The notes below the pieces were generated by a model. That model saw only the letters and a list, made by a program, of their open reading frames with translations. It was not told the DNA's origin and did no database searches. Shown in pieces: positions 19,552-57,861 of a DNA stretch of 64,000 bases. A program made the position numbers and the translations under genes. The DNA comes from Alloalcanivorax gelatiniphagus (GTDB lineage Bacteria > Pseudomonadota > Gammaproteobacteria > Pseudomonadales > Alcanivoracaceae), in contig NZ_VCQT01000040.1 of NCBI RefSeq assembly GCF_005938655.1, positions 1 to 64,000 of the forward strand, given 5' to 3'. Numbering within the stretch: the stretch's first letter is position 1; the number at the start of each line of letters is the position of its first letter.

Positions 19552-20088
19552 GCGGGGCCGCGTCTCGGCCGAATAGGCCGGGGTGTTGTAGGAGCGACTT
19601 TAGTCGCGATAAACGGCGGTGCCAACCGCATCGCGGCTAAAGCCGCTCCTACAATCGCCGGCCTCGGCAACGGGCACCTTGTCGGCGCCCCGTTTGACAG
19701 GGGCCCGGACCGGAAGGGGGCCCACGCCGAGACGCCCCGAGGTAGCGTCACCCACGGCTCCGTCGAATAGGTCGGGGTGTTGTAGGAGCGACTGGGCGGC
19801 ATTCCGCTTTAGTCGCGATCAACGGCATCCGACTTCAGCCGCGATCAACGGCGGTGCCCAACCGCATCGCGGCTAAAGCCGCTCCTACAATCGCCGGTCT
19901 CGGCAACAGGCCCCTTGCCGGGCGTCCCGTTTGACAGGGGCCCGGACCGGAAGGGGGCCCACGCCGAGACGCTTCGAGGCAGCGTCACCCACGGCTCCGT
20001 CGAATAGGGCGGGGTGTTGTAGGAGCGACTGGGCGGCATTCCGCTTTAGTCGCGATCAACGGCATCCGACTTCAGTCGCGATCAACCC
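19552..20088. repeat. 237-bp tandem duplication made of REP units
   Basis: This fills the 563-base gap between gpgS and rlmJ. A unit containing GATCGCGGCTAAAGCCGC-type REPs, a CGTTTGACAG / GGGGCCCGGACCGG segment and AGCGTCACCCACGGCTCCGT repeats with a 237-base offset (for example CGTTTGACAG at 19691 and 19928, AGCGTCACCC at 19744 and 19981). A third partial copy ends at about 20088, and the first copy lacks an internal segment. No protein gene is supported; two minus-strand frames with nearly identical N-termini are products of the duplication. Confidence 0.85.
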
Positions 20089-41336: not shown

Positions 41337-42029
41337 GTGAAGCCGACACGGAAATCGCCGGCCCGAAAAAAAACCCCAGTGAAGTCCGGAGCACCGGAGC
41401 GCCCCAAACGGGTGCGCAGAAATCCGGAAAGGCTGATTGCCGCCATCCTCAATGCGGCGATCGAGGAGTTCTCCAATCACGGTTTTTCCGGCGCTCGTAT
41501 TGACCGCATCAGCAAGCGGGCCAATACCGTTGACCGCATGCTCTACTACTATTTCGGCAACAAGGAACGGCTCTACGAAGCGGTACTGGAAGAGGTTTAC
41601 CGCAATCTCATCGAGGAACAACGTCAATTCGTCCCACCGGAAGGCGACCCGGTCAACGGCATGGACGAGCTGATCACCCATATGTGGGAACACTACATGA
41701 ACCATCCGGAATTCATCCGGCTGGTGATGTCCGAGAACCTGCTTTATGGGCGCTACATCCGGCAGTCCGAGCACATCAAACAGGTTTCATTCCCGCTGGT
41801 GCGGATTATCGATGAGATCCTGAAGAGCGGCAAAAAGAAGAATATATTCCGCCCCGACGCGGACACCAACTTCATCCTGATGACCATCATGTCGATGGGG
41901 TTTTTCTACGTGTCCAACCAATACACTTACACCTATTGGCTCTCCAAGGAACTGACGCCGAATCTGCGCAGCGATGCCTGGCTGGGTCATATGAAAACGG
42001 TGATTTTCGACCACCTGATGGTGCGCTGA
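41337..42029 (+). CDS. TetR-family regulator of the Rieske/ABC island
   Basis: A 230-residue repressor. The basic N-terminus (about 1-28, rich in Lys/Arg) is followed by the TetR DNA-binding domain (ERLIAAILNAAIEEFSNHGF, then ARIDRISKRANTVDRMLYYYF), about 30-78. The C-terminal ligand domain (HPEFIRLVMSENLLYGRYI near 122) resembles RutR-like regulators. GTG 41337 is chosen because AGGAG lies 7 bases ahead; upstream in-frame sequence is repeat DNA. It is convergent with the minus-strand operon, and its likely effector is the imported substrate. The stop codon overlaps the T-run of that operon's terminator. Confidence 0.9.
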   Translation: MKPTRKSPARKKTPVKSGAPERPKRVRRNPERLIAAILNAAIEEFSNHGFSGARIDRISKRANTVDRMLYYYFGNKERLYEAVLEEVYRNLIEEQRQFVPPEGDPVNGMDELITHMWEHYMNHPEFIRLVMSENLLYGRYIRQSEHIKQVSFPLVRIIDEILKSGKKKNIFRPDADTNFILMTIMSMGFFYVSNQYTYTYWLSKELTPNLRSDAWLGHMKTVIFDHLMVR

Positions 42030-42058
42030 AAAAAAAGGCGCGTCACAGTGGACGCGCC
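42029..42058 (-). terminator. rho-independent terminator of the Rieske operon
   Basis: On the minus strand a perfect 8-bp stem GGCGCGTC / GACGCGCC with a 6-base loop (42058-42037) is followed by eight T residues (42036-42029). It lies 46 bases after the binding-protein stop codon. Confidence 0.9.
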
Positions 42059-42104
42059 GGCCGGTCACCCGGTGGGAAGAAAAGGCGACCAAAAACCTTC
42101 ATCG

Positions 42105-43313
42105 TCAGTCGCCCGCCACCAACGCCTTGCGCTCCTCCAGCGGCGGACTGATGGCATCGCCGTTCAGATACTTCCAGGTCTTCATGTAGCCACGACCGTC
42201 CTTGAGATCGGAACGCCCCACGATCACACCCATGGAGGACTGGTTATCCACCGGGCTGAATCGCTCGACACCGAAAGGCGTGGAGAACTCCAGCCCCTTG
42301 AAGGCCTCGACCAGATCCTCGGCGTCCGTTGATCCCGCCTTCTCAATGCCCGCGGCCAGTGCCTTCACCGTGGCGTAGGCGACCACCGAATTCATGCGTG
42401 GGTAGTCATCATATTTGGCGCGGTACTTCTCTATGAAATCCTGATGCTCGGGCATATCCAGGCTGTAATAAGGATAGCCGGTAACGATCCAGTTCTTTGG
42501 CGCATCACCTTTCAAAGAGTCGGAATACTCGGGCTCGCCGGACATCAGGCTCACCACCTCCCGGTTTTCGAACAGGCCCCTATTGTGCCCCTCGCGCAGG
42601 AACCGGGTCAGATCGGCGCCGAACAGCACATTGAAGATGGCATCGGGCCTGGCGTCCTCAAGAGCCTGCACCATCAAGCCGGCGTCCACCTTACCGTAGG
42701 GGGGCGCCTGCTCGATCACGAACTCCACATCCGGCTGGCGCTTTTTCATCTCGCGTTTAAAGGTCTCCGCCGCCACCTGACCGTATTCGTAATTGGGATA
42801 AACCAGCGCCCAACGCTTCTTGTTCAGAGCCACCGCATCGTCGATCACCGCGGCCACCATGGCGTAGGTGCCGGCGCGCAACCGGTAGGTGTAGCGGTTG
42901 TGTTTACTCCAGATGATGGCATCGCTGAACGGGCCGGAGGCGAGGAAAAAGACCTTACGGTGACGGGCGAAATCGGACACCGCCAGACCCACATGGGAGA
43001 ACGTCACCCCCGCCAACATATCCACCTTTTCCAGCGTCACCAGTTCCTGGGCGGCGCGCACCGCTTCGCCGGCATTGGCGTTGGAGTCGCGGAATACCGT
43101 TTCCAGACGCTTGCCCAACACGCCGCCCTGGGCATTGATTTCCTCCTGCGCCAGCTCCCACCCTTTACGGTAAGGCACGGTCAGAGCGGGCAGGGCCTTA
43201 TAGGCATTGATTTCGCCGATGCGGATTACATCGTCATCGGCGCTGGATAGCACACTGACCAACAAGGTCGCGGCCGCCACGAAAAATGGGATTCTCCTGA
43301 TTTTCCTTCGCAT
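42105..43313 (-). CDS. branched-chain-type ABC transporter periplasmic binding protein
   Basis: A 402-residue protein with a Sec signal peptide (basic start, hydrophobic 9-22, cleavage near Ala25). The mature part is a type 1 periplasmic binding domain: RIGEINAYKALPALTVPYRKGWELAQEEIN, conserved EINAQGGVLGKRLE, VYPNYEYGQ near 166 and FNVLFGADL near 226. LivK-type proteins of this sort bring in aromatic acids, amides, urea or amino acids. ATG follows AGGAG with 8-base spacing. It is the last gene of the operon FNR-ferredoxin-Rieske-binding protein, and its permease and ATPases are in the divergent operon. Confidence 0.92.
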   Translation of the reverse strand: MRRKIRRIPFFVAAATLLVSVLSSADDDVIRIGEINAYKALPALTVPYRKGWELAQEEINAQGGVLGKRLETVFRDSNANAGEAVRAAQELVTLEKVDMLAGVTFSHVGLAVSDFARHRKVFFLASGPFSDAIIWSKHNRYTYRLRAGTYAMVAAVIDDAVALNKKRWALVYPNYEYGQVAAETFKREMKKRQPDVEFVIEQAPPYGKVDAGLMVQALEDARPDAIFNVLFGADLTRFLREGHNRGLFENREVVSLMSGEPEYSDSLKGDAPKNWIVTGYPYYSLDMPEHQDFIEKYRAKYDDYPRMNSVVAYATVKALAAGIEKAGSTDAEDLVEAFKGLEFSTPFGVERFSPVDNQSSMGVIVGRSDLKDGRGYMKTWKYLNGDAISPPLEERKALVAGD

Positions 43314-43341
43314 GCGTATGCTCCTGGGAATGGGTTGATGC

Positions 43342-44361
43342 TCATCGTTCTTGGGAGATCATCTCGCTTACCATCTTGCGCATCTTCATCGACGAAGCGT
43401 CGATCGCCAGCCTTACCGGGCGGACGTCCTTGAACTTTTCTTCGTTATTCTGGATGGCTTCCAACACCACCTTGTCCTCGTTAAAAGCAATTCTCAGGCC
43501 ATCCTTGAGACGCTGGTCCACGGCCTCGTCGGCGGGCATATTCTTCACCAGCAGCCAATGCTGGATGCAGGTACGGCTGTCCACCGGCGTAATGAAGTGG
43601 CAGGCAAACATCTGGATGCAGTCGGACCGGTCACCTTCCGGGGCTCCGGTGCCGGTGGGCGCGCTACCGAAGTCGATAATGGCGATGGACGGGCAGTAAT
43701 AGTGATAGTAGTGCCACCGATCCACATTGCCCTGATAGGGCTTGAGCCCCTCGAAGATGGGGATCAGCGGTGAGTCGATGATCCAGCGCCAGGTGACCAC
43801 CCGATCTTCCAGGCGCTCATGGTGAACCGGCACATCACCGTGCTGCTTGTTCGACAGCGTGCTCTGATGGACATAGGCGACGTGGGAGGGGTCGCAAAGG
43901 TTTTCCGCCAGATTCAGGTAATTGGCGTGAAGCACCAGGGCATCGCCCTCGAAGGAGCTGTAGTTTTCATCGTGGTACTCGGGCAGGTCGAACACCTTGC
44001 TCTGGTCGGCTTTATCCTCGTCACCCATCCAGATCCAGACCATGCCCATGTTCTCCACTACCGGATAGGCACGGACACGGACACTGTCAGGCACCCGATC
44101 CTGACCGGGTATGTGCACGCAACGGCCATCGCAACCGAAGCGCAGTCCGTGATAGCCACATTCGATGGTGTCGTCCACCAGGGTACCGATGGACAAAGGC
44201 GCCAACCGGTGAGGGCAGGCATCCTCCATGGCCACGACCTGCCCGCCACTGTCACGGAACACCACGATCTGTTCCTCGATAACCACATGGCGCGCCAGCT
44301 CGTGGCCGACGTTGCGCGACCATGTCAACGGGTACCAGGTATTACGAACGTATTCAGACAT
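43342..44361 (-). CDS. Rieske oxygenase, VanA / dicamba O-demethylase-like
   Basis: A 339-residue non-heme iron oxygenase. Rieske ligands are Cys49/His51 (ACPHRLAPLS) and Cys68/His71 (ECGYHGLRF). The mononuclear iron site is Asn154, bridging Asp157, His160, His165 (NLAENLCDPSHVAYVH) and Asp296 in FNEDKVVLEAIQ. From memory, dicamba O-demethylase has C49, H51, C68, H71, N154, D157, H160, H165 and D294, so spacing is almost identical. VanA-type enzymes are alpha-only trimers that demethylate or hydroxylate aromatic or N-methyl compounds. GGAGG lies 6 bases before the ATG. Electrons would come from the ferredoxin encoded 15 bases upstream. The substrate is unknown. Confidence 0.93.
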   Translation of the reverse strand: MSEYVRNTWYPLTWSRNVGHELARHVVIEEQIVVFRDSGGQVVAMEDACPHRLAPLSIGTLVDDTIECGYHGLRFGCDGRCVHIPGQDRVPDSVRVRAYPVVENMGMVWIWMGDEDKADQSKVFDLPEYHDENYSSFEGDALVLHANYLNLAENLCDPSHVAYVHQSTLSNKQHGDVPVHHERLEDRVVTWRWIIDSPLIPIFEGLKPYQGNVDRWHYYHYYCPSIAIIDFGSAPTGTGAPEGDRSDCIQMFACHFITPVDSRTCIQHWLLVKNMPADEAVDQRLKDGLRIAFNEDKVVLEAIQNNEEKFKDVRPVRLAIDASSMKMRKMVSEMISQER

Positions 44362-44376
44362 TGTTTCCTCCAGGCA

Positions 44377-44703
44377 TCAGGGCCATTCAGGCGCCAGCTC
44401 GACCTTGAGGCCGTCGCAGGCGTCGGTAATCGGAATCTGGCAGGCGAGCCGGGAATCCGGGCCGGGTTCAAACGCCAGATCAAGTGCGTCTTCCTCGTCC
44501 TCGCCCAGCTCCGACAAGGCACCCGCCGGCGCCTGCCGCACATAGACATGGCAGGTCGCGCAGACACAACTTCCGCCACACTCCGCCCTTACCGGCAGGC
44601 CGGCGTCGACCATCATCATCATCAGATTGCTGCGCGTGCCCGGCTCGACCACCAGTTCATGGGATTGGTTTTGCCGATCAATTACGGTTATTTGCATGTT
44701 CAT
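44377..44703 (-). CDS. putidaredoxin/adrenodoxin-type 2Fe-2S ferredoxin
   Basis: A 108-residue ferredoxin. The cluster pattern C-x5-C-x2-C ... C is met by Cys42, 48, 51 and 88 (ECGGSCVCATCHVYV and LACQIPI). Cys46 is an extra cysteine inside the loop where putidaredoxin has Ser or Ala. GALSELGEDEEDALDLAFE is the acidic helix used to dock oxygenases and reductases. It is coupled to the reductase gene by a 4-base overlap and precedes the Rieske gene by 15 bases, so it is the natural electron carrier between them. Confidence 0.93.
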   Translation of the reverse strand: MNMQITVIDRQNQSHELVVEPGTRSNLMMMMVDAGLPVRAECGGSCVCATCHVYVRQAPAGALSELGEDEEDALDLAFEPGPDSRLACQIPITDACDGLKVELAPEWP

Positions 44704-45749
44704 CTCGGGCCCAGATGCTCCTTCATTGCCGTTGTGCTGTGTTCAAAAACATGTCTGATATCCGGGTGCAGACGACGTTTGACGTCGTGGGCCATGAGCG
44801 CCGCTTCGTGAAAGCCGGAAAGGATCAAACGCAGTTTTCCCGGGTACCAGCACACATCACCGATGGCGTAGACGCCGTCCAGGCTGGTGGCGAAGCGTTC
44901 GGTATCGACGCGGATGTGGTCGCCATGCATGTCCAGGCCGAAGGACGTCAGCGGCCCGAGCCGGGCGGACAGGCCGAAGAAGGCCAGCACGTGATCACAC
45001 ACCACCTGATCACCGCCCTGCAGCCGCACGCCGCTGAGCTGCCCGCTGTCGTCGACCAGCTCGGCCACCGCGCCGGCGCGGAAATCCATGGCGCCGGTAT
45101 CGATCAAGGCGCGCACCTTATTCACCGTGTCCGGGGCGGCACGGAAGCGGTCCCGGCGGTGTACCAGAGTCAGGCGCTCAGCGATGTCGTGTAAGTTCAG
45201 AGCCCAGTCCAGCGCGGAGTCGCCGCCACCGACCACCACCAGGTGCTTTCCGCGCAAACGTTCTCTCTCTCGCACCGCATAAAGAAGCCCTTCGCCTTCG
45301 TGCATTTCCGCTCCCGCCGCTGGCAGCTTTCTCGGCGAGAAACACCCGGACCCCGCCGCGATCACCACGGCCCCGGCGATAAAGCACTGACCATCGTTGG
45401 TACGAACCCGCCAGCGCCCATCGTCCATGCGGTTCAAGGCTTCCACCATCAGGCCGAAATGAAAACGCGGCTCGAACGGCCGGGCCTGCAGCAGCAGATT
45501 GTCGATCAGCTGCTCGCCACTACAGTCCGGCAAGGCGGGGATATCGTAGATTGGCTTTTCCGGATAGAGCTCCGCGCATTGCCCGCCCGGCCGATCCAGT
45601 ACATCGACCACATCGCAGCGCATACCAAGCATGCCCAGCTCGAACGTGGCGAACAGGCCACAGGGGCCCGCGCCGACAATCAATACATCCGTCTCGATTT
45701 CCGAAACCTCGCCTGGCGGCCTGGAGGTTTGAGATTCTGTGTGCGACAT
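44700..45749 (-). CDS. thioredoxin-reductase-like ferredoxin-NAD(P)H reductase
   Basis: A 349-residue FAD enzyme. The FAD site is LIVGAGPCGLFATFE near 23-37, and the NAD(P) site is VVVGGGDSALDWAL near 166 followed by the phosphate-binding VHRRDRFRA. The C-terminal FAD motif is GVYAIGDVCWYPGK. There is no CxxC between the domains, which separates it from thioredoxin reductase and places it with the YumC-type ferredoxin-NADP reductases. The VHRRD arginines suggest NADPH. Start: ATG 45749 is preferred, with weak GGGA ahead; a GTG at 45767 would add six residues. It is the first gene of the operon. Confidence 0.9.
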   Translation of the reverse strand: MSHTESQTSRPPGEVSEIETDVLIVGAGPCGLFATFELGMLGMRCDVVDVLDRPGGQCAELYPEKPIYDIPALPDCSGEQLIDNLLLQARPFEPRFHFGLMVEALNRMDDGRWRVRTNDGQCFIAGAVVIAAGSGCFSPRKLPAAGAEMHEGEGLLYAVRERERLRGKHLVVVGGGDSALDWALNLHDIAERLTLVHRRDRFRAAPDTVNKVRALIDTGAMDFRAGAVAELVDDSGQLSGVRLQGGDQVVCDHVLAFFGLSARLGPLTSFGLDMHGDHIRVDTERFATSLDGVYAIGDVCWYPGKLRLILSGFHEAALMAHDVKRRLHPDIRHVFEHSTTAMKEHLGPR

Positions 45750-45776
45750 CACCACGTCCCGAATCACATTTATGGA

Positions 45777-45804
45777 GTGTTTTAACCATTAATGGAGTAA
45801 ACAC
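45777..45804. promoter_or_regulatory. 28-bp near-perfect palindrome, likely island operator
   Basis: GTGTTT-N3-CCATTAATGG-N3-AAACAC spans 28 bases with only the two N3 spacers unmatched. It lies 28 bases upstream of the reductase ATG, where it would overlap the start of the Rieske operon transcript. Size and symmetry suit a TetR dimer. ATGGAGT also recurs at 45772 and 45792, and TTGGAGT at 46014. Confidence 0.65.
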
Positions 45805-45984
45805 TACATTTTTCTATTCAGGAATGTAAAGTGCTTTTTTATGCTGATCAATCGCACCTTTTTCGAGCAAATCACTCGAATTCGCACCCATTTAGAGCAG
45901 GAAAAAGCTGAAAAAACTCACTATATAAAAGTTCTTTCATTTTTCGGTCTCGCGGCGCCTACCCATTTTTTGTTCTACCCACCC

Positions 45985-46014
45985 TTGACTTCACATCCCA
46001 AACCATTGCATTTA
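45985..46014 (+). promoter_or_regulatory. possible sigma-70 promoter of the permease operon in the 409-base divergent gap
   Basis: TTGACT (45985-45990) and a weak A+T-rich -10 region near CATTTA (46009-46014) are spaced about 18 bases and point to the fused permease gene. The whole gap (45750-46158) is far richer in A+T than its surroundings. It also holds TATATAAAA near 45923 and a 60-codon open frame (45841-46023) that lacks a ribosome site and is not called as a gene. The leader of about 145 bases before the permease ATG shows no clear riboswitch. Confidence 0.4.
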
Positions 46015-46158
46015 TTGGAGTGAATTCTTAATTAGTGTAGTCACTTCTTTAATCATGGCCCGAACGGCGACTTCGGTGGCACGCCACCTGCATAACAGCC
46101 TGGGCAATTGCGCGGCATACGCCATTCACAAGACAAAAAAGCCAGAAAGGACAAGCCT

Positions 46159-48117
46159 ATGTCCCTGTCCAGCCTCCTGATTCAGATGATCTCCGGGCTG
46201 TCGGAAGCCTCCACCCTGTTTTTGATTTCCGTGGGGCTTTCGCTGATCTTCGGCGTCACGCGGATCGTGAATTTCGCCCACGGCTCCTTCTATATGCTGG
46301 GCATCTATCTTTCCTACACCCTGGTCTCCCGGTTTGGAGACACGGCTTCCGGCTTCTGGTTGGCGACGTTGCTATCGGCATTGACCGTGGCGGTGATCGG
46401 CGCGCTCATCGAGATGACCGTGCTGCGTCGCATCTACCATGTGCCGGAGCTGTTTCAGCTACTCGCCACCTTCGCCCTGGTGCTGGTGATCTCCGACGCC
46501 ACCTTGTATCTATGGGGGCCGGAGGAACTGCTTGGGCCAAGGGCGCCCGGACTCAGTGGTTCCATATCCTTGCTCGGGCACCGCATTCCTCAATACGATC
46601 TGGTGCTTATGGCCATAGGCCCGCTGATACTGGTGGGGCTATACCTGATGCTTAATCTCACCCGCTGGGGAACCTTGATCCGCGCCGCCACTCAGGACCG
46701 GGAGATGGTCGGCGCCCTGGGCATCAATCAGCACTGGCTGTTCACCGGGGTGTTCGCCCTGGGCTGCTTCCTCGCCGGCCTCGGCGGTGCCCTGCAAGGT
46801 CCACGGGTGCCCGCCAACCTGTTGCTCGATATCGAAGCCATCGGCACCGCCTTCGTGATCGTGGTGATTGGTGGCATGGGGTCGATCACCGGCGCCTTCG
46901 TGGCCTCCCTGCTGATCGCTCAGATCAAAGCCCTGTGCTATGGCATCGGCACACTCACTTTCTTTGACGTCGTTATTCCTCTTAACCAGATGACCCTGGT
47001 CATCGAGTTCCTGGTGATGGCGATTGTGCTGGTGGTCCGACCCTGGGGCCTGCTCGGGCGCGCCCTGCCGCCGTCCCGACAGGCGCCCCAATCCGAGCCG
47101 ATGCTGACGCCGGCGAGCAAGGGGGTACGCTGGTTCGGCGCCCTGATCGCGCTGGTGCTGATGATGGTGCCGACTTTCTCCGAGAGCTTTCCGTATCTGA
47201 TTACGCTGTCGGTGGACATGCTGATCGCCGTGCTGTTCGCCGCCAGCCTGCACTTCATCATGGGCCCCGGTGGCTTGCACTCCTTCGGCCATGCGGCCTA
47301 CTTCGGCCTGGGCGCCTATGGTGCCGGTTTGCTGGTGCTGATGCTGGGCCTGCCCATGGAGCTGGCGATGATCCTCGGTCCGCTGGTGGCCGCCTTGGGC
47401 GCGCTGGTTTTCGGGTGGTTTTCGGTGCGCCTTTCCGGCGTTTACCTGGCCATGCTGACACTGGCATTCGCGCAAATCGTCTGGTCCGTTATTTATCAAT
47501 GGAACGGCTTCACCGGCGGCAGCAACGGCCTCATCGGCATCTGGCCTTCGGACTGGCTGGCCTCCCCCACCGCGTTCTACTACCTGACACTGGCCTCGGT
47601 GATCATCTCGGTACTTTTATTGCGGTTCGGCTTGTTCGCGCCGTTTGGCTTCGCCCTGCGCGCCGGCCGTGACTCGGCCCTGCGAGCGGAGGCCATTGGC
47701 ATCAATGTGAAACGCATTCAGTGGTACGCGTTCACCATCGCCGGCCTGTTCGGTGGCGTGGCGGGCACCCTGTTCGCGTTCTCCAAGGGCAGCATCTCTC
47801 CGGAAGTGATCAGCGTGTCGCGCTCGGTGGATGGTCTGGTGATGGTACTGCTGGGCGGCATCAACACCTTGTCCGGCCCCATCGCCGGCGCCTCGATTTT
47901 CACATTGCTGCACGACACGGTGATGCGAGAGACCACCTATTGGCGCGCGGTGCTGGGCCTCGCCGTGCTGACGCTGGTGATTCTGTTCCCCACCGGCATC
48001 GTCGGCTCGGCCCAGGCCATCGGCGAGCGGATCAAGAGCCACCTTCTGAACAGACAACGCGGCGGCCAACTCAACGGCGCCGGCAATGCACAACAATCCG
48101 GAGGCGACCCGCGATGA
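46159..48117 (+). CDS. fused LivH-LivM branched-chain-type ABC permease
   Basis: A 652-residue inner-membrane protein. The N-terminal half (about 1-290) is LivH-like: ISVGLSLIFGVTRIVNFAHG near 24 and the cytoplasmic loop AATQDREMVGALGIN near 170. The C-terminal half (about 325-640) is LivM-like: GPGGLHSFGHAAYFGLGAYG near 370 and ALRAGRDSALRAEAIGIN near 500, the EAA-type coupling loop. The halves are normally separate genes; here a hydrophilic linker (about 300-320, Pro/Ser-rich) joins them. It works with the two ATPases downstream and the binding protein of the divergent operon. ATG 46159 follows AGAAAGGAC. Confidence 0.93.
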   Translation: MSLSSLLIQMISGLSEASTLFLISVGLSLIFGVTRIVNFAHGSFYMLGIYLSYTLVSRFGDTASGFWLATLLSALTVAVIGALIEMTVLRRIYHVPELFQLLATFALVLVISDATLYLWGPEELLGPRAPGLSGSISLLGHRIPQYDLVLMAIGPLILVGLYLMLNLTRWGTLIRAATQDREMVGALGINQHWLFTGVFALGCFLAGLGGALQGPRVPANLLLDIEAIGTAFVIVVIGGMGSITGAFVASLLIAQIKALCYGIGTLTFFDVVIPLNQMTLVIEFLVMAIVLVVRPWGLLGRALPPSRQAPQSEPMLTPASKGVRWFGALIALVLMMVPTFSESFPYLITLSVDMLIAVLFAASLHFIMGPGGLHSFGHAAYFGLGAYGAGLLVLMLGLPMELAMILGPLVAALGALVFGWFSVRLSGVYLAMLTLAFAQIVWSVIYQWNGFTGGSNGLIGIWPSDWLASPTAFYYLTLASVIISVLLLRFGLFAPFGFALRAGRDSALRAEAIGINVKRIQWYAFTIAGLFGGVAGTLFAFSKGSISPEVISVSRSVDGLVMVLLGGINTLSGPIAGASIFTLLHDTVMRETTYWRAVLGLAVLTLVILFPTGIVGSAQAIGERIKSHLLNRQRGGQLNGAGNAQQSGGDPR

Positions 48118-48914
48118 GCCTGCTGACGGTAGAGAGTCTCAATAAATCCTTCGGTGGCGTGCGCGCGGTGGACGACGTCTCCTTCGAACTCCCCAAAGGC
48201 CACATGATGGCGTTGCTGGGTCCCAATGGGGCCGGCAAGTCGACCTGCTTCAATATGCTCAACGGTCAGCTTGTACCTTCTTCCGGCTCCATCCGCATGG
48301 AAGGTGAGGAGCTGATCGGCAAACGCCCTCGTGACATCTGGCGGCTGGGGGTTGGCCGGACCTTCCAGATTGCCGCCGTGTTTAATTCCATGTCGGTGGT
48401 GGAAAACGTACAGATGGCCCTGTTCTCGCACCAGCGGCGGTTGCTGCGTTTTTTCAAGCCACTGCATCGCTATGACCGTGAACCGGCGCTGGAACTGTTG
48501 CGGCTTGTTGGCATCGAGCAGTACGCCGACAAACCCTGCAGTACCCTCGCCTATGGCGATGTGAAGCGCGTGGAGCTGGCCATCGCCATGGCCCATGGCC
48601 CGCGCCTGCTGTTGATGGACGAGCCCTGCGCGGGGATGGCGCCCCACGAACGAAACGGGTTGATGGCACTGACCCGGCGCCTGGTGGACGAGCAGGGTAT
48701 TTCCGTGCTGTTCACCGAGCACAGCATGGACGTGGTGTTCTCATTCGCGGATTCGATGCTGGTGCTGGCCCGCGGCAAATTGATCGCCGCCGGTGACGGC
48801 AATCACATCCGCCATCACCCCAAAGTAAAGGAGGTCTATTTCGGTAGCGGTAAGACCTTCGAGGAGGACGCCCGCGAACCCAACACCGGCGCCCCGGTAT
48901 CCACGGAGCATTGA
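48114..48914 (+). CDS. LivG-type ABC ATPase
   Basis: A 266-residue ATPase. Walker A is GPNGAGKST at 36-44; FNMLNGQLVPSSGSIRM follows. The Q-loop is RTFQIAAVF; the signature is the LivG-style TLAYGDVKRVELAIAMA in place of LSGGQ, and Walker B is LLLMDEPCAGMAPHE. The switch histidine is in FTEHSMDVV. The C-terminal tail (about 250-266) is short and acidic. It overlaps the permease stop by 4 bases. Confidence 0.93.
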   Translation: MSLLTVESLNKSFGGVRAVDDVSFELPKGHMMALLGPNGAGKSTCFNMLNGQLVPSSGSIRMEGEELIGKRPRDIWRLGVGRTFQIAAVFNSMSVVENVQMALFSHQRRLLRFFKPLHRYDREPALELLRLVGIEQYADKPCSTLAYGDVKRVELAIAMAHGPRLLLMDEPCAGMAPHERNGLMALTRRLVDEQGISVLFTEHSMDVVFSFADSMLVLARGKLIAAGDGNHIRHHPKVKEVYFGSGKTFEEDAREPNTGAPVSTEH

Positions 48915-48916
48915 AC

Positions 48917-49636
48917 ATGAAACCCATACAGACTTTGCTTGAGGTGAATGACCTGAACGCCTTCTACGGGCGTGCGCAGATTCTTTTCGATGTCAGCCTG
49001 AAAGTCGGACGCGGCGAGGTGGTGGCGCTGATGGGCCGCAACGGCGCGGGCAAATCCACCACCATGAAGACCATCATGGGACTGGTGGAGCGACGGACCG
49101 GCACGGTGCGCTTCCGCAAGGAAGCGATCGAACGCCTGGCTCCCTTCCGCATATGCCAGCGGGGCCTGGGCTTCGTGCCGGAAGACCGGCGCATCTTCAC
49201 CGATCTCTCCGTGATGGAAAATCTGGAGGTCGGCCGGCTTTCCGAACGACTCGATGCCCCATACTGGGATGAGAACAAGCTTTTTAAGCTGTTCCCCAAT
49301 CTCGGCGAGATGCCCAATCGGCCGGGCGGTCAGATGAGCGGCGGCGAGCAGCAGATGCTGACCATCTCCCGCACACTGATGGGCAACCCCTATCTGGTAC
49401 TGCTCGATGAGCCTTCGGAAGGGGTGGCGCCCTTGATCGTCGAGCAGATGGCGGAAATGATCGTGGAGCTCAAGAAGCAAGGCCTGTCGGTACTGCTGTC
49501 TGAGCAGAACATCCATTTCGCCAAGCTGGTATCGGACCGCGCCTACATTCTCGAAAACGGGCAGGTACGTTATCAGGGGTCAATGAGAGACCTGGCCGCC
49601 GACGAAGTCACCCAGCAAAAATATCTGTCGGTATAA
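48917..49636 (+). CDS. LivF-type ABC ATPase
   Basis: A 239-residue ATPase with Walker A GRNGAGKST at 40-48, Q-loop in LGFVPEDRRIF, signature MSGGEQQMLTISR near 137 and Walker B LVLLDEPSEGVAP. The switch is in LSEQNIHFAKLV. ATG 48917 lies 9 bases after GGAG; a TTG at 48911 is an alternative. It completes the transporter with the LivG-type ATPase. The operon ends here, 47 bases before a hairpin used by the convergent CoA-transferase transcript. Confidence 0.93.
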   Translation: MKPIQTLLEVNDLNAFYGRAQILFDVSLKVGRGEVVALMGRNGAGKSTTMKTIMGLVERRTGTVRFRKEAIERLAPFRICQRGLGFVPEDRRIFTDLSVMENLEVGRLSERLDAPYWDENKLFKLFPNLGEMPNRPGGQMSGGEQQMLTISRTLMGNPYLVLLDEPSEGVAPLIVEQMAEMIVELKKQGLSVLLSEQNIHFAKLVSDRAYILENGQVRYQGSMRDLAADEVTQQKYLSV

Positions 49637-49682: not shown

Positions 49683-49716
49683 AAAAAAAAGGCCGCTCCG
49701 AGGGAACGGAGCGGCC
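49683..49716 (-). terminator. rho-independent terminator of the gcdH operon
   Basis: A perfect 10-bp stem GGCCGCTCCG / CGGAGCGGCC with a 6-base loop (49691-49716) is followed on the minus strand by eight T residues (49690-49683). It ends transcription from gcdH and the CoA-transferase gene. The hairpin alone, without a T-run, is met by the plus-strand permease transcript. Confidence 0.93.
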
Positions 49717-49780: not shown

Positions 49781-51007
49781 TCAGGCGACCACGCCCTCGG
49801 CGAACAGGGTTTGCAAACCGGCTTCGTCGATGCCCAGCAAATCACCCAGTACCTCACGGGTGTGTTCACCGAGCAGCGGCGGCGGCCGGCGGTATTGCGC
49901 CGGAGTGGCGGACAACCGCAGCGGGCTGGCCACGGTGGGCACGGCCCCGGCGGAGGGGTGTTCCATCTCCCGGCGCAGGCCACGGGCCTGGGCCTGGGGG
50001 TCCTCGAACACCTGTTCCAGGGTGTTCACCGGCCCGCAGGGCACGCCCACCGCTTCCAGGTCGTCCAGCCATTCCCGGGTGGTTTTCATCACCGTGGTCT
50101 GGCGCAGCAGCGGCACCAGCACCTCGCGGTGCTCCACCCGCGAGCGGTTGGTGGCGAAGCGCGGGTCCTCGGCCCATTCCGGATGACCGGCCACCTCACA
50201 GAAGCGGGCGAACTGGTCGTCGTTGCCCACGGTCAGGATCAGGTCGCCGTCGGCGGTGGGAAAATCCTGGTACGGCACAATGTTCGGGTGCGCGTTGCCG
50301 GCCCGCTGCGGTGAGCGGCCGGTGGTCAGGAAGTTCATCGCCTGGTTGGCCAGACAAGCCACCTGCACGTCGAACAGAGCCATGTCCAGATGCTGACCTT
50401 CGCCGCTGCGGTCCCGGTGGGCCAGGGCCGCCAGCACCGCGATGGTGGCGTACAGGCCGGTGGTGATATCGGTGAGCGCCACGCCCACTTTCATCGGCCC
50501 GGCGCCCTCCTCGCCATCCGGGCGGCCGGTGAGGCTCATCAAACCGCCCAGCGCCTGGATCATGAAATCGTAGCCGGCGCGACGGGCGTAGGGGCCGTCC
50601 TGGCCGAAGCCGGTGATCGAGCAGTAAATCAGCTTCGGGTTCACCGCCTTCAGGCTGTCGTAATCCAGGCCGTAGCGTTTCAGGCCACCGACCTTGAAGT
50701 TCTCCAGCACCACGTCGCATTCCGCCGCCAGCTTGCGCACCAACGCCTGCCCTTCCGGGCGGGTGATGTCGATGGCCACGGATTCCTTGTTGCGGTTGGC
50801 GCTCAGGTAGTAAGCGGCCTGGTCGGTGTCCTGACCGTCACCGTCCTTCAGGTAGGGCGGGCCCCAGCCACGGGTATCGTCCCCGCGGCCCGGACGTTCC
50901 ACCTTGATCACCCGGGCGCCCAGGTCACCCAGGATCTGACCGGCCCAGGGGCCGGCCAGAACCCGGGAAAGATCCAGGACGCGCAGGTGGGACAGTGCGC
51001 CGGACAT
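49781..51007 (-). CDS. CaiB/BaiF CoA-transferase (probable succinyl-CoA:glutarate CoA-transferase)
   Basis: A 408-residue class III CoA-transferase. LDLSRVLAGPWAGQILGDLGA near 11 and IKVERPGRGDDTRGWGPP near 34 open the family fold. The catalytic aspartate is likely Asp180 in VGVALTDITTG, and ITGFGQDGPYARRAGYDFM near 131 is conserved. It would activate glutarate to glutaryl-CoA, the substrate of the gcdH product encoded just upstream (1-base overlap). The same pair with a divergent LysR gene is found in Pseudomonas aeruginosa next to gcdH. Confidence 0.88.
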   Translation of the reverse strand: MSGALSHLRVLDLSRVLAGPWAGQILGDLGARVIKVERPGRGDDTRGWGPPYLKDGDGQDTDQAAYYLSANRNKESVAIDITRPEGQALVRKLAAECDVVLENFKVGGLKRYGLDYDSLKAVNPKLIYCSITGFGQDGPYARRAGYDFMIQALGGLMSLTGRPDGEEGAGPMKVGVALTDITTGLYATIAVLAALAHRDRSGEGQHLDMALFDVQVACLANQAMNFLTTGRSPQRAGNAHPNIVPYQDFPTADGDLILTVGNDDQFARFCEVAGHPEWAEDPRFATNRSRVEHREVLVPLLRQTTVMKTTREWLDDLEAVGVPCGPVNTLEQVFEDPQAQARGLRREMEHPSAGAVPTVASPLRLSATPAQYRRPPPLLGEHTREVLGDLLGIDEAGLQTLFAEGVVA

Positions 51008-52191
51008 CAGTTAGCGAACGCTTGCAGACCGGTCTGGGCGCGGCCCAGGATCAGCGCGTGCACGTCGTGGGTGCCTTCGTAGGTGTTGACCACTTCCAGG
51101 TTCACCAGGTGACGGGCCACGCCGAATTCATCGGAGATGCCGTTGCCGCCCATCATGTCGCGGGCCAGACGGGCGATGTCCAGGGACTTGCCGCAGGAGT
51201 TGCGCTTCATGATGGAGGTGATTTCCACCGCCGCGGTGCCTTCGTCCTTCATGCGGCCCAGACGCAGGCAGCCTTGCAGGCCCAGGGTGATTTCGGTCTG
51301 CATGTCGGCCAGTTTCTTCTGGATCAGCTGGTTGGCGGCCAGCGGGCGGCCAAACTGCTTGCGGTCCAGGGTGTACTGGCGGGCGGTGTGCCAGCAGAAC
51401 TCGGCGGCGCCCAGGGCGCCCCAGGCGATGCCGTAGCGGGCGGAGTTCAGGCAGGTGAACGGGCCTTTCAGGCCGGTCACGTTGGGCAGCATGTTCTCTT
51501 CCGGCACGAACACGTTGTCCATCACGATTTCACCGGTGATGGAGGCGCGCAGGCCCACCTTGCCGTGGATCGCCGGCGCGGACAGACCTTCCCAGCCTTT
51601 CTCCAGGATAAAGCCACGGATCTTGCCGTCTTCGGTTTTGCCCCATACCACGAATACGTCGGCGATCGGGCTGTTGGTGATCCACATCTTGGCGCCGGTG
51701 AGGCTGTAGCCACCGTCCACTTTCTTGGCGCGGGTGGCCATGCTGCCCGGGTCGGAACCGTGGTCCGGCTCGGTCAGGCCGAAGCAGCCGATCCACTCGC
51801 CGCTGGCCAGCTTGGGCAGGTACTTCTGTTTCTGCTCTTCGCTGCCGAATTCGTTGATCGGCACCATTACCAGGGAGGACTGAACACTCATCATGGAGCG
51901 GTAGCCGGAGTCCACGCGCTCTACTTCGCGGGCGATCAGGCCGTAGCAAACGTAGTTCATGCCGGCGCCGCCATAGGCTTCCGGAATGGTGGCGCCGAGC
52001 AGGCCCAGCTCGCCCATTTCGCGGAAGATGGCCGGATCGGTCTTCTCGTGGCGGAAGGCTTCCAGCACACGGGGGGCCAGCTTGTCCTGGCAGTATTGGC
52101 GGGCGGCGTCCGCCACCATGCGTTCGTCTTCAGTGAGCTGCTGGTCCAGCAGCAGAGGGCTTTCCCAGTTGAACGAAGCCTGATTCGCCAT
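51007..52191 (-). CDS. gcdH: glutaryl-CoA dehydrogenase
   Basis: A 394-residue FAD acyl-CoA dehydrogenase that oxidises and decarboxylates glutaryl-CoA to crotonyl-CoA in lysine, hydroxylysine and tryptophan breakdown. [20 protein letters not shown] near 137 and [16 protein letters not shown] near 167 bind FAD and substrate. The catalytic Glu is in [18 protein letters not shown] near 370-388, the GCDH form of the motif. Start ATG 52191 (MANQASFNW) gives the normal length; a GTG 12 bases upstream is possible. Transcribed with the CoA-transferase gene and divergent from gcdR. Confidence 0.96.
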
Positions 52192-52351
52192 GGTTTTCAC
52201 CACCTATGCATTTGTTGATATAGAGACACCCCTGGCGGGGTGAACTCGTTGAGGGCGTCCATCCTATGGACCTGTTATCCCACCCGGCAAGCGATTATTA
52301 TTCATCCCATTGTGCGTTTTCATCACTTCATCGCCCTACCCCGGAGAATCC

Positions 52352-53260
52352 ATGCGCCGCAAGATCCCCAGCACCACCGCCCTGGTGGGTTTCGAGGCCG
52401 CCGCCCGCCATCAAAGCTTCACCAAGGCCGCCGAGGAGTTGTCGCTGACGCAGAGCGCGATCTGCCGGCAAATCGGCGGTCTGGAGGAATTTCTCGGCGT
52501 TAAGCTGTTTCGCCGGGGCCGCCAGGGGGTGCAGTTGACGCCCGCCGGCCAGCACTACAGCCGCCAGGTCAGCGCCCGTCTCAACGAACTGGAAAGGGAC
52601 ACCCTGGCGGCCATGGGCAAACACGGCACGAATAACATTTTGGAACTGGCGCTGGTGCCCACCTTCGGCACCCGCTGGCTGCTGCCACGGCTGTCGTCGT
52701 TCCGCGAGCAGCACCCGGACGTGACCGTGAACCTGACCAACCGCACCCGCCCGTTTCTGTTCGCCGACACCCGCTTCGACGCCGCCATCTACTTCGGCGA
52801 CGGCCAGTGGCCGGGCACCACCGCCACCCCGCTGATGCACGAGGAACCGGTGCCGGTGTGTCACCCGGATCTGGCCGGCGATGGCCCGCTGGATGGCGAG
52901 GCCATCGCCCGCCTGCCGCTGCTGCAACAGACCACCCGGCCTTATATGTGGCGGGCCTGGTTCGATTCCCTGGGGCTGAAGGTGGACCGGGACATGGCCG
53001 GGCCCCGCTATGAGCTGTTCACCATGCTGGCCGAGGCGGCCATCCAGAAGATCGGCGTGGCGCTGATTCCGCCCTTCCTGATTACCAAGGAGCTGGAAAG
53101 CGGCCAGCTGGTGATTCCGTTCCGGCACAGCTTCCGCAGCACCGACGCCTATCAATTCGTGGTGCCGGACAGCCAGCGCGGCAACGAGACGGTGGCGCGC
53201 TTCCAAGAGTGGCTGGTGGAAGAAGCCCGCCGCTTCCAGACCGCCGAAGCCGGCCAATAA
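52352..53260 (+). CDS. gcdR: LysR-family regulator of glutarate catabolism (GcdR-like)
   Basis: A 302-residue LysR regulator. The winged HTH spans about 5-65 (ALVGFEAAARHQSFTKAAEE, then LTQSAICRQIGGLEEFLGVK). The effector domain (about 90-295) is type 2 periplasmic-like. ATG 52352 follows CCGGAGAATCC; a GTG at 52310 would extend it by 14 residues. Divergent position beside gcdH matches the Pseudomonas gcdR arrangement, where glutarate is the inducer. The 160-base gap must hold the operator, and no T-N11-A site was assigned with confidence. Confidence 0.9.
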   Translation: MRRKIPSTTALVGFEAAARHQSFTKAAEELSLTQSAICRQIGGLEEFLGVKLFRRGRQGVQLTPAGQHYSRQVSARLNELERDTLAAMGKHGTNNILELALVPTFGTRWLLPRLSSFREQHPDVTVNLTNRTRPFLFADTRFDAAIYFGDGQWPGTTATPLMHEEPVPVCHPDLAGDGPLDGEAIARLPLLQQTTRPYMWRAWFDSLGLKVDRDMAGPRYELFTMLAEAAIQKIGVALIPPFLITKELESGQLVIPFRHSFRSTDAYQFVVPDSQRGNETVARFQEWLVEEARRFQTAEAGQ

Positions 53261-54336: not shown

Positions 54337-54484
54337 GTCCATGTCCTCGCTATAAGTTGGCGACTGTCGAAAGTCGGCACATAGTCCGTCAGGGCCCTGG
54401 CCGGCGCCAGTGGCCAGGTCTCGAAACCACGGCGCTTTTATAAAAGTTTTCAATGTCCACGCGGGTTTATGTGCGCCCCCACCG

Positions 54485-54516
54485 TTGACCTTGGGGTTAC
54501 CCCAAGGTTGGATACT
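54485..54516 (+). promoter_or_regulatory. MerR/CueR-type copper promoter of copA
   Basis: -35 TTGACC (54485-54490) and -10 GATACT (54511-54516) are separated by 20 bases, the long spacing used by MerR-family activators. The spacer holds a perfect dyad ACCTTGGGG-TTA-CCCCAAGGT (54488-54508), close to the CueR consensus ACCTTCC ... GGAAGGT. It lies 35 bases before the copA start. No cueR gene is in the window. Confidence 0.88.
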
Positions 54517-54550
54517 GGGCCTACTCAGGCTTCTTTCACGGGAGACCCTC

Positions 54551-57052
54551 ATGAACAGTCAGACCCTTGCCATTCGCGGCGCCTCCTGCCAGCACTGCGT
54601 CAAAACCATCGAGAACGCCCTGGGCGCGGTGGCCGGCGTGCGTGGCGTGCAGGTGGATCTGAACCAGCAGACGGTGACCGTGGACGGCGACGCCGACCGG
54701 GGTGCCCTGCGCGCCGCCCTGGACGACGCCGGCTATGCCGCCGAGGACGACGACGGGGAGGCGCCGCCACCCTCGGAGTCGCCCCCGGAACCCGCCGCCC
54801 GGGACCGGGACCTGTCCCTGTCGGTGACCGGCGCCCATTGCGCTTCCTGCGTGCGCACCATCGAGGACGCCCTGCACGGCGTGCCCGGGGTCGCCACGGC
54901 GAGCATGAACCTGGCCAACCACACCGCCCGGGTGAGCGGCAGCGCGGACCCGGATGCGCTGGTGCGCGCGGTGCAGAAGGTGGGCTATGACGCGGCGCCG
55001 GTGCGCGACCCGGCCCGCGCCGAGGACGACCGGGAAGCCCAGGAGCGCCAGCTGTACCGCAAGCTGGTGCGCCAGACCAGCGTGGCGCTGGCGGTGGGCC
55101 TGCCGATCATGCTGTGGGGCTGGTTCGGCGGCACCATGACCGTGGAAGCCGGCACCGCCAGCCAGTGGGGCTGGGGCGCGGTGGCGGTGATCACCTTTTT
55201 GATGCTGGCCTTCCCGGGCCGGCATTTCTTCGTCGGTGCCTGGAAGGCGTTCCGTCATCACAACGCCAATATGGACACCCTGATCGCGGTGGGCACCGGC
55301 GCCGCCTGGGGCTATTCCACCCTGGTGGTGATCGCTCCGGACCTGCTGCCGGAGATGGCCCGCCACGTTTATTTCGAAGCCAGCCCGATGATCATCGGCC
55401 TGGTGAACCTGGGCCTGGCCCTGGAGCTGCGCGCCCGGGGCAAGACCGGCGCCGCCGTGAAACGGCTGCTGAACCTGGGCGCCAAAACCGCCCGCCGCCT
55501 GGACGACGATGGCGAGCACGATGTGCCGGTGGAAGATATCCGCGTGGACGACCGACTGCGGGTGCGCCCCGGTGAAACCATCGCGGTGGACGGCGAGGTG
55601 CTGGAAGGCGACAGCGAGGTGGACGAATCCATGCTCACCGGCGAGCCCATGCCGGTGGTGAAAAGCGAAGGCGACACCGTGGCCGCCGGCACCCTCAACG
55701 GCAGCGGCACCCTGGTGTACCGCGCCACCCGGGTGGGCGCCGACACCGCCCTGGCGCGGATCATCGATCTGGTCAAGAAAGCCCAGGGCGCCAAGCCGCC
55801 CATCGGCCGGCTAGCCGACACCGTGGCCAGTGTGTTCGTGCCCACCATTCTGCTGATCGCCGTGGCCACCGCGCTGATCTGGTACAACGTCGGCCCGCAG
55901 CCGGTGGCCGCCTACATGGTGGTGGCCTCGGTGACCGTGCTGATCATCGCCTGCCCCTGCGCCCTGGGCCTGGCCACGCCCATGTCGGTGATGGTGGCGG
56001 TGGGCAAGGCGGCGGAGTCCGGCATCCTGATCCGCCAGGACGCCGCCCTGCAAACCGCCGCCGAGCTGGACACCGTGGTGCTCGACAAAACCGGCACCAT
56101 TACCGAGGGCCGGCCGTCCGTAACCCGGGTGATCGCCGCCCCGGACCAGGACGAAGAAACGGTGCTGCGCCTGGCGGCCAGCCTGGAAGCCGGCTCCGAG
56201 CACCCGCTGGCGCGGGCGATCCTGGACGCCGCCGAGGAGCGTGGTCTGAAGCCGCAACCGGTGAGCGACTTCCGCGCCCTCAACGGCAAGGGCGTCAGCG
56301 CCCGCCAGGACGGCGCCCTGCTGCGCCTGGGCAACCGCCGCTGGCTGGAACAGGAAGGCATTCAGCTGGGGCTGGAAGACCAGGCCCGGCAACTCAGTGA
56401 CCAGGCCGCCACGCCCCTGTTCCTGACCCGCGACCACACCGTGATCGGCGTGCTCGGCGTGGCCGACCGCATCAAGGCGGACGCCGCCGAGGCGATTCGC
56501 CGGCTGCGCGACCGGGATATCCGGGTGGTGATGATCACCGGCGATATCCAGGCCACCGCCGACGCCATCGCCCGCCAGGCCGGCGTGGACGAAGTGCTCG
56601 CCGAGGTGCTGCCGGAAGACAAGGCCCGCGAAGTGGAAAAACTGCAGAAGGAAGGCCGCAAGGTGGCCATGGTCGGTGACGGCATCAACGACGCCCCGGC
56701 CCTGGCCCAGGCGGACGTGGGCTTCGCCATCGGCACCGGCACCGACGTGGCCATCGAGTCCGCCGCCATCACGCTGATGAGCGGTTCCCTGCACGGCGTG
56801 GCCGACGCCATGGCGATTTCCCGGGCCACCCTGCGCAACATCAAACAGAACCTGTTCGGCGCCTTCGTCTACAACAGCCTGGGCGTGCCGGTGGCCGCCG
56901 GCCTGCTCTACCCGTTCACCGGCTGGCTGCTCAGCCCGGTGATCGCCGGCGCGGCCATGTCGCTGAGTTCGGTGACCGTGGTCAGCAACGCCAACCGGCT
57001 GCGTTTCTTCAAGCCCCGTGGCCATGGCAAGGGAAAGGGAGATCGCTCATGA
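54551..57052 (+). CDS. copA: copper-exporting P1B-type ATPase
   Basis: An 833-residue Cu(I) export ATPase. It has two N-terminal heavy-metal domains (Cys13/Cys16 in GASCQHC and Cys97/Cys100 in GAHCASC). Eight membrane helices follow, with the CPC motif Cys468-Pro-Cys470 ([13 protein letters not shown]), the phosphorylated Asp512 in DKTGT, HPLARAI in the nucleotide domain, and [18 protein letters not shown]. The late-membrane YN and [16 protein letters not shown] motifs are those of Cu(I)-type pumps. ATG 54551 follows GGGAGAC; the upstream frame only overlaps the promoter. Expected to be induced by copper through CueR. The next gene overlaps its end. Confidence 0.97.
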
Positions 57053-57414
57053 GCATCCTGATCAATGGCGCCGGCCTGGCGCTGATGGCCCTGATCGTCT
57101 GGTGGTTCTGGCTGTCTTCCAAGGGCCGCCCGGCGAAACGGGCGGAGCAAGACGGCACCATCGACATCGTGGTGGCCGACGGCGTCTACGAGCCCTCGGT
57201 GATCGAAACCAACACCGGCGACACCCTGACCCTGCGCTTCGACCGGCGCGACCCGAGCCCCTGCGCCGAACAGGTGATCTTCCACAAGCTGGACGTCAGC
57301 GAGACCCTGCCGGTGGGCGAGAAGACCACCGTCACCCTGACGCCGGCGACGCCGGGCACCTACCGCTTTACCTGCCAGATGCAGATGTATCAGGGCACCC
57401 TGATCGTTCACTAG
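57049..57414 (+). CDS. membrane-anchored cupredoxin-like protein
   Basis: A 121-residue protein: one N-terminal membrane helix (about 7-24, [14 protein letters not shown]) then a cupredoxin-fold domain. [20 protein letters not shown] near 47 is the family start, CAEQVIF near 74 is the loop region and [18 protein letters not shown] near 100 holds the C/M end. Cys74, Cys109 and Met111/Met113 are plausible copper ligands, though the usual histidines are missing. It probably hands or receives periplasmic copper next to CopA. It overlaps the copA stop by 4 bases. Confidence 0.85.
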
Positions 57415-57435
57415 AGAAGAAAAAAGGAGATTCCC

Positions 57436-57861
57436 ATGACCCGTTTGCTGATCGCCGCCGGCCTGTTTCTCACCAGCACCCTGGCCGCCGCCGGTACCCT
57501 TGAGGTGTACAAATCACCGAGCTGCGGCTGCTGCACCGCCTGGGCGGAGCACATGCGCGACAACGGCTTCGAGGTGGAGGTACACAACACCGAGAACCTG
57601 CAATCCATCAAGGAAAAAGCCGGCCTGAAGCCGGGCATGGGCTCCTGCCACACCGCCTTTATCGACGGCTACGCCATCGAAGGCCACGTACCCGCCGAGG
57701 ACGTGAAACGGCTGCTGGAACAACGCCCGGACGCCCACGGCCTCACCGTGCCGGGCATGCCGGTGGGCTCCCCGGGCATGGAAATGGGCGACCGCCGCGA
57801 CGCCTACAAGGTGCTGCTCTACGGTGAGGACGGCGTGCGGGTGTTCGCCACCCACCCCTGA
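57436..57861 (+). CDS. DUF411 copper-binding periplasmic protein
   Basis: A 141-residue protein with a Sec signal (LLIAAGLFLTSTLAAAG, about 3-20) and the DUF411 core. SPSCGCCTAW has Cys30, Cys32 and Cys33, SCHTAFIDGYAIEGHVP near 70 adds Cys71, His72 and His84, and PGMPVGSPGMEMG provides methionines. DUF411 proteins accompany copper-resistance genes and likely bind or store copper in the periplasm. It is 21 bases after the cupredoxin gene, ending the copA operon. Confidence 0.88.
   Translation: MTRLLIAAGLFLTSTLAAAGTLEVYKSPSCGCCTAWAEHMRDNGFEVEVHNTENLQSIKEKAGLKPGMGSCHTAFIDGYAIEGHVPAEDVKRLLEQRPDAHGLTVPGMPVGSPGMEMGDRRDAYKVLLYGEDGVRVFATHP

Follow-up and report, generated by a model that had tools for sequence, protein, structure and literature searches.

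We examine an island of genes at positions 41337 to 49636 of a 64,000-nucleotide stretch of DNA from Alloalcanivorax gelatiniphagus (contig NZ_VCQT01000040.1; the whole stretch is called the window below). The island encodes a Rieske oxygenase, its redox partners, a Liv-type importer and a TetR-family regulator. From these components, the clade to which the oxygenase belongs, the link of that clade to two alternative nicotinate routes and a palindrome shared with relatives, all of them computed, we infer that the island imports trigonelline (N-methylnicotinate) and N-demethylates it to nicotinate. We give this proposal, with its substrate, its chemistry and its electron path, a probability of about two in three. 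An earlier look at the same DNA, called here the sequence-only reading, had suggested that one compound is imported and oxidised, with an emphasis on dicamba-like and methoxy-aromatic substrates and an N-methyl compound as a further option. The outline stands and the emphasis does not; in the light of the nicotinate gene context, the N-methyl option is likely and is the best of those it offered.

Plants and marine organisms contain trigonelline in abundance, and its bacterial demethylation to nicotinate has been reported. We know of no enzyme assigned to this demethylation, and a literature search, judged by titles and the starts of abstracts of the papers listed and with subscription journals largely uncovered, gave no description of a Rieske enzyme that demethylates trigonelline. 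According to the proposal, trigonelline would be taken up by the binding-protein-dependent LivHMGF transporter. Electrons would pass from NAD(P)H to a thioredoxin-reductase-like ferredoxin reductase, then to a [2Fe-2S] ferredoxin, the Rieske cluster and the mononuclear iron, and the three-component Rieske monooxygenase would hydroxylate the carbon of the N-methyl group, releasing formaldehyde and leaving nicotinate. The nicotinate would be degraded through the Nic (NicC) route on contig C11 of the same genome, with NicX homologues on contig C13. Methylxanthines (PMC12346622) and glycine betaine (PMC12093977) are known substrates of Rieske N-demethylation, according to the consulted parts of both papers; applied to trigonelline, the same reaction would give nicotinate.

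Nicotinate genes around the oxygenase clade

The proposal draws on the genes that accompany relatives of the oxygenase. One genome per species is scanned, and the best 80 matches give 79 loci, some of which end at contig ends; 35 marker proteins are run over these loci by tblastn, with identity thresholds that we set ourselves. The 6-hydroxynicotinate reductase (HnR) is present in 46 of the 79 loci, UPF0280 in 44, two AA_synth proteins in 40 and 42, and the large subunit of a molybdenum hydroxylase in 37. Two enamidase-like amidohydrolase queries match in 10 and 7 loci, the first of them matching PDB 2vun (E 1e-106), while NicC and NicX reach the threshold in 6 and 4 loci respectively. At least one nicotinate marker of any kind is found in 55/79. 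The NicC type of locus is seen in Halopseudomonas xiamenensis (L026) and Pseudomonas profundi (L037), where NicX, NicC, NicD, MarR and Tct genes stand with the reductase, the ferredoxin and the oxygenase. In Marinobacter sp. X15-166B (L035), NicX lies directly upstream of the oxygenase with relatives of NicC, NicD, NicE and NicF nearby, and the neighbours match solved enzymes (NicC with 5eow, E 2e-208; NicX with 7cn3, E 5e-199). Relatives of the TetR, Rieske, binding-protein and Liv genes occur together with HnR in Pigmentiphaga sp. NML080357. In 52 of the 79 loci the Rieske gene is followed downstream, within 500 bp, by a binding-protein gene of the window kind, which bears out the earlier view that transporter and oxygenase belong together. 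Three plasmid loci with sister-clade Rieske genes (L024, L104, L105) carry none of the nicotinate markers.

The two routes have their beginning in common. According to the consulted part of PMC3511419, the known bacterial routes of nicotinate breakdown first form 6-hydroxynicotinate and diverge after it. Because nicotinate and 6-hydroxynicotinate are common to the HnR and the NicC/NicX routes, an oxygenase tied to both would act at or before these compounds. In many loci and in the source genome, molybdenum-type enzymes already supply the hydroxylation of nicotinate. This bears on a different reading, in which the oxygenase is an alternative hydroxylase of nicotinate or 6-hydroxynicotinate and the Liv system a nicotinate importer. 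Such a role would agree with the link of the clade to nicotinate genes, and the ABC transporter of the cluster in PMC3511419 is named a putative nicotinate transporter in the portion consulted, but the molybdenum-type large subunit supplies the step in the 37 loci above, and genes for MoCo-binding, [2Fe-2S] and cytochrome c proteins adjoin NicC in the source genome. We consider a hydroxylase role quite improbable.

We turn to the source genome itself. It has no HnR match, in a search where 22 of 36 genomes matched, and its NicC, 69% identical to that of Marinobacter, is encoded on contig C11. Near this gene are genes of the isochorismatase, arylmalonate-decarboxylase and alpha/beta hydrolase types, the kinds to which NicF, NicE and NicD belong, and the cluster also holds MarR, TctA and TctC besides the MoCo-binding, [2Fe-2S] and cytochrome c genes. 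C13 carries NicX homologues of 53% and 47% identity. A downstream pathway thus exists elsewhere in the genome, where the sequence-only reading had expected the product to go. The C11 cluster has Tct transporter genes of its own, so that the Liv system would be free to import a precursor. On C13 (genome G000; L115, 7775-15145) a further cluster combines a NicX homologue with what look by eye like an alpha/beta hydrolase, a FAD monooxygenase and a Liv transporter; it is perhaps another pyridine pathway.

The association can also be followed across whole genomes, with NicC accepted at 59% identity or more. The source genome and 35 locus genomes, 36 together, are searched in full and the other 44 carriers are judged by their locus alone; the counts of co-occurrence and linkage are made by eye from listings. 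Among the 36 genomes, NicC is found in 14, HnR in 22 and both in 2, so that 34/36 have one or the other; in the genome of L025 the NicC match runs across one stop, and in that of L101 the match to HnR is partial. HnR lies inside the locus in 42 of the other 44, which brings the carriers with NicC or HnR to 76/80. As a background we use 398 genomes sampled from the phylum, a set that includes the source genome and two other carriers (G686 and G633): NicC is present in 15, HnR in 31 and both in 1, or 45/398 for either. A linkage control takes the 16 HnR genomes that have a distant Rieske homologue only. The two genes share a contig in 6 of them, always more than 500 kb apart, and lie on different contigs in 10; in the clade member G633, HnR and the Rieske gene are 11 kb apart. 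In G686 and in the source genome, Rieske and NicC genes are on different contigs. Linkage separates the clade members from the distant-homologue genomes in part.

Several results weigh against the trigonelline proposal. The window itself has no adjacent nicotinate gene, and no such gene lies within the fetched stretch in 24/79 loci; among these are the close relatives L025, L027, L028, L030 and L031, which have NicC or HnR elsewhere in their genomes. No marker turned up for four carriers of the 80: L041 and L086 in the whole-genome search, L069 and L090 within the locus. Either marker is also found in 19 of the 57 sampled genomes with only a distant Rieske homologue (E 1e-85 to 1e-40), which implies that genome make-up inflates the co-occurrence, and of the three carriers in the 398-genome sample only G633 has a marker near the Rieske gene. 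The cluster of PMC3511419 has an ABC transporter and, in the part consulted, no mention of a Rieske oxygenase, so that the Liv system could carry nicotinate. Finally, nicotinate may be made from another precursor, such as N-methylnicotinamide, a methoxy- or methyl-substituted pyridine or another N-alkyl pyridinium. The gene context fixes the product better than the substrate, and VanA-type oxygenases (VanA, DdmC and TsaM) also attack O-methyl and C-methyl groups; the binding-protein-dependent importer and a conserved aspartate in the oxygenase, on the other hand, would suggest a polar and cationic substrate. We regard such another precursor as unlikely, though as one to be kept in mind. Many carriers are marine by name, which would suit homarine or some other N-methylated compound that does not yield nicotinate, but the neighbouring genes encode nicotinate enzymes, and the papers listed in the literature search gave nothing to the point on homarine; we give this idea very little credence.

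With these points weighed, we still favour trigonelline as the substrate. We also think it rather probable that the clade as a whole is a bacterial trigonelline N-demethylase with its own importer, regulator and interchangeable electron partners, placed ahead of the nicotinate route of its host in alpha-, beta- and gammaproteobacteria, many Roseobacters among them.

The oxygenase and its electron partners

The predicted trigonelline N-demethylase (43342 to 44361, minus strand) has the Rieske and VanA_C domains (Pfam, 76.2 and 155 bits). Both the Rieske motif C-X-H ... C-X2-H and the iron site N-X2-D-X2-H-X4-H ... D are present, and the ligands C49, H51, C68, H71, N154, D157, H160, H165 and D296 are invariant across 47 aligned rows. 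These are the positions given in the sequence-only reading, and its placement of the last DdmC ligand at 294 agrees with the alignment as well. The predicted structure (pLDDT 93.7) is most similar to dicamba monooxygenase (TM 0.91-0.92 for the two best chains, 27-28% identity), followed here by the guaiacol O-demethylase 7qwt (TM 0.87, 25% identity in the structural alignment), which is also the top sequence match in the PDB (E 1e-42). A tree of 71 rows, built by a quick method and without NdmA, TsaM, PobA and Stc2, places the oxygenase inside a clade of 45 rows (SH-aLRT 99) and DdmC and 7qwt outside it; DdmC and a VanA-annotated row have long branches, and their exact place is unsure. The fold is thus DdmC-like, and a close sequence kinship with DdmC is not found. 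The description of the enzyme as dicamba-demethylase-like holds for fold and ligand spacing but not for identity or position in the tree.

The same data bear on the O-demethylation of a methoxy-aromatic compound, for instance a methoxybenzoate, which had been the first choice before. Its appeal is that the top structural matches are the dicamba and guaiacol O-demethylases. At 25-28% identity, however, with both enzymes outside the clade (in a quick tree with long branches) and with the clade linked to nicotinate catabolism, a methoxy-aromatic substrate appears very improbable.

A further hint concerns the active site. Position 230 is an aspartate in 35/35 clade rows, while lysine (5), arginine (2), aspartate (3), glutamate (1) and serine (1) occupy it in the remaining 12. 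We take N230 and H251 to be the dicamba contacts of DdmC; in the alignment H251 stands opposite H255, and N230 stands opposite I229, the neighbour of D230. An aspartate at 230 in all clade rows would suit a cationic substrate.

Upstream of the oxygenase in the same operon are the genes of its two likely partners, both on the minus strand. The [2Fe-2S] ferredoxin (44377 to 44703) is of the ferredoxin VI/putidaredoxin type, as had been suggested, with PDB matches to 3lxf, 1e9m and putidaredoxin. The ferredoxin-NADP reductase (44700 to 45767, with a possible ATG start at 45749) is thioredoxin-reductase-like and best matches 5ygq (E 1e-112). Six of the 79 loci hold a relative of this reductase: those of Halopseudomonas and Pseudomonas profundi and four from alphaproteobacteria. 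In five of them its gene immediately precedes those of ferredoxin and oxygenase; in L036 it is about 6 kb off. The window type of ferredoxin is found in 12/79 and another kind of ferredoxin-NADP reductase in 15/79. The oxygenase is thus retained while its likely partners vary.

Two observations on the surroundings of the oxygenase gene in other genomes are added. In Marinobacter sp. X15-166B, two closely related oxygenase copies lie in one locus, at 10001 and 17105, the second being followed by a ferredoxin (39% identity) and, by eye, a putidaredoxin-type reductase gene. In 11/79 loci a conserved protein of about 350 aa (IGCNGRG...) is encoded downstream of the Rieske gene, directly or one gene further (for example L026 11124-12188, L027 11077-12123 and L035 11046-12122). 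For the Marinobacter protein, Pfam gives no match and the PDB none of significance by sequence; a model of its Halopseudomonas counterpart (pLDDT 85) is similar to TIM barrels of the xylose-isomerase-like kind (best E 1e-7, TM about 0.5). No match to this protein is found in the source genome, in a search where the positive control worked.

Layout, control region and flanking genes

All the genes named in the sequence-only reading are found at 41337 to 49636: TetR, binding protein, Rieske oxygenase, ferredoxin, reductase, LivHM and two ATPases. The minus-strand operon is transcribed in the order reductase, ferredoxin, Rieske oxygenase, binding protein. The last of these (42105 to 43313; Peripla_BP_6) belongs to a Liv-type ABC importer and best matches PDB 3i45 (E 2e-127), whose ligand we take to be nicotinate; we found no paper to confirm this, and the match is not used as evidence. 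Diverging from this operon on the plus strand are the permease (46159 to 48117), LivG (48114 to 48914) and LivF (48911 to 49636, with an ATG at 48917), the two ATPases being assigned by profile matches. The permease was described before as LivHM, and both parts are present, although as one fused protein with two BPD_transp_2 stretches in a single open reading frame. The importer set of binding protein, two fused permease domains and two ATPases is thus complete. The regulator (41337 to 42029, plus strand; TetR_N and TetR_C_29 by Pfam) has an uncertain start codon.

The space between the two operons is rich in A+T, with a GC content of 0.395 at 45800-45999 vs 0.575-0.68 in all-coding 200-base windows. 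The control region and the divergent operons agree with the earlier description, whereas the TetR gene does not take part in the divergence: it lies at the far end of the island and is convergent with the binding-protein gene. The region holds a palindrome of the form ATGGAGT-N4-ACTCCAT, seen in the candidate TetR operator ATGGAGTAAACACTACAT at 45792 to 45809 (plus strand, 0 mismatches). A second candidate adjoins it at 45772 to 45789 (minus strand), and a third lies on the transporter side at 46015 to 46032 (plus strand), each with 3 mismatches. TetR relatives, 46-58% identical, occur in 7/79 of the Rieske loci, and an 18-base palindrome is found in some relatives with the same TetR, as ATGGAGTAAACACTCCAT in Pigmentiphaga litoralis and ATGGAGTGAATACTCCAT in Variovorax ginsengisoli. 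In Pigmentiphaga sp. NML080357, where related palindromes lie at 19911 and 19932 between HnR and FNR, the palindrome reads ATGTAGTATTCACTACAT. The pattern is derived from these same sequences, so that a shuffle test overstates its significance, and a genome-wide count is fairer: WTGGAGTRAAYACTMCAT with up to 3 mismatches has 6 matches in the source genome, 4 of them (3 sites) in the control region, and the reversed control pattern has none in that genome. Regulator and site do not always go together. In L027, L028 and L031 the TetR is present, yet every site found there is weak, with more than 2 mismatches; L033 combines two 1-mismatch sites with a TetR match of only 29%; L037 has one site at 2 mismatches and no TetR at threshold; and in L026, L034 and L035 both the site and a TetR at threshold are missing. 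The single promoter-like match of our scan falls outside the control region. The TetR probably controls both divergent promoters through the candidate palindromes.

Two terminator-like hairpins are seen, both on the minus strand and both consensus matches only. One is 3' of the binding-protein gene (42037 to 42058, 8 pairs and a T8 tail), and the other stands at the border, outside the island, between livF and a gcd-like operon (49691 to 49716, 10 pairs and a T8 tail). The region has 9 such hairpins vs 6.8 (sd 2.5) in shuffles, which is no excess, and an Rfam scan of the window gave no match. Beyond the border, genes at 49781-53260 for a CoA-transferase III, an acyl-CoA dehydrogenase and a LysR protein resemble a glutarate-utilisation operon with NCBIfam scores under the cut-offs (CoA-transferase at 49781-51007, NF052585, 540 bits vs 750; acyl-CoA dehydrogenase, NF045552, 223 bits vs 470). 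The HnR route passes via glutarate, according to the consulted part of PMC3511419. The genes had thus suggested glutarate as an end-product, but we reject them as part of the island, since HnR finds no match in the source genome and the terminator-like hairpin at the border stands in between. Further on, 54410-57861 encodes a copper-type P-type ATPase together with what looks by eye like a small, secreted and possibly copper-binding protein.

Comparison with known systems

If the proposal is true, one gene family joins the betaine trigonelline to two nicotinate routes, the family offers a genetic marker for trigonelline turnover in soil and sea, and the Rieske N-demethylases gain a further substrate. 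To our knowledge, no relative within the clade has a tested substrate.

Bacterial use of trigonelline, reportedly by way of nicotinate, is the feature shared with Rhizobium meliloti; its trigonelline catabolism genes are said to lie on pSym (Goldmann et al., 1991). TgnAB of Acinetobacter baylyi, a flavin monooxygenase system, acts on the same proposed substrate but opens the ring, whereas we propose N-demethylation. DdmC has the fold, the domain make-up and the ligand spacing of the window oxygenase; it differs in its low identity, in its position outside the clade and in the nicotinate context of the window enzyme's clade. Its partner DdmB is a putidaredoxin-like ferredoxin, as at the island; the reductase of that system is of another type. 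7qwt differs in its aromatic ether substrate (as given in its title), besides the 25% identity. The nicotinate cluster of Azorhizobium and Bradyrhizobiaceae strain SG-6C resembles our loci in having HnR, the three first nicotinate steps, an ABC transporter and two conserved unknown proteins; it differs in starting from nicotinate, with no Rieske oxygenase mentioned in the consulted part of the paper (PMC3511419). In its chemistry, the proposal resembles NdmA/NdmB, which carry out a Rieske N-demethylation of an N-methyl heterocycle (PMC12346622, consulted in part) and are set apart from the window oxygenase by a TM of 0.72-0.74 and an identity of 19-23%.

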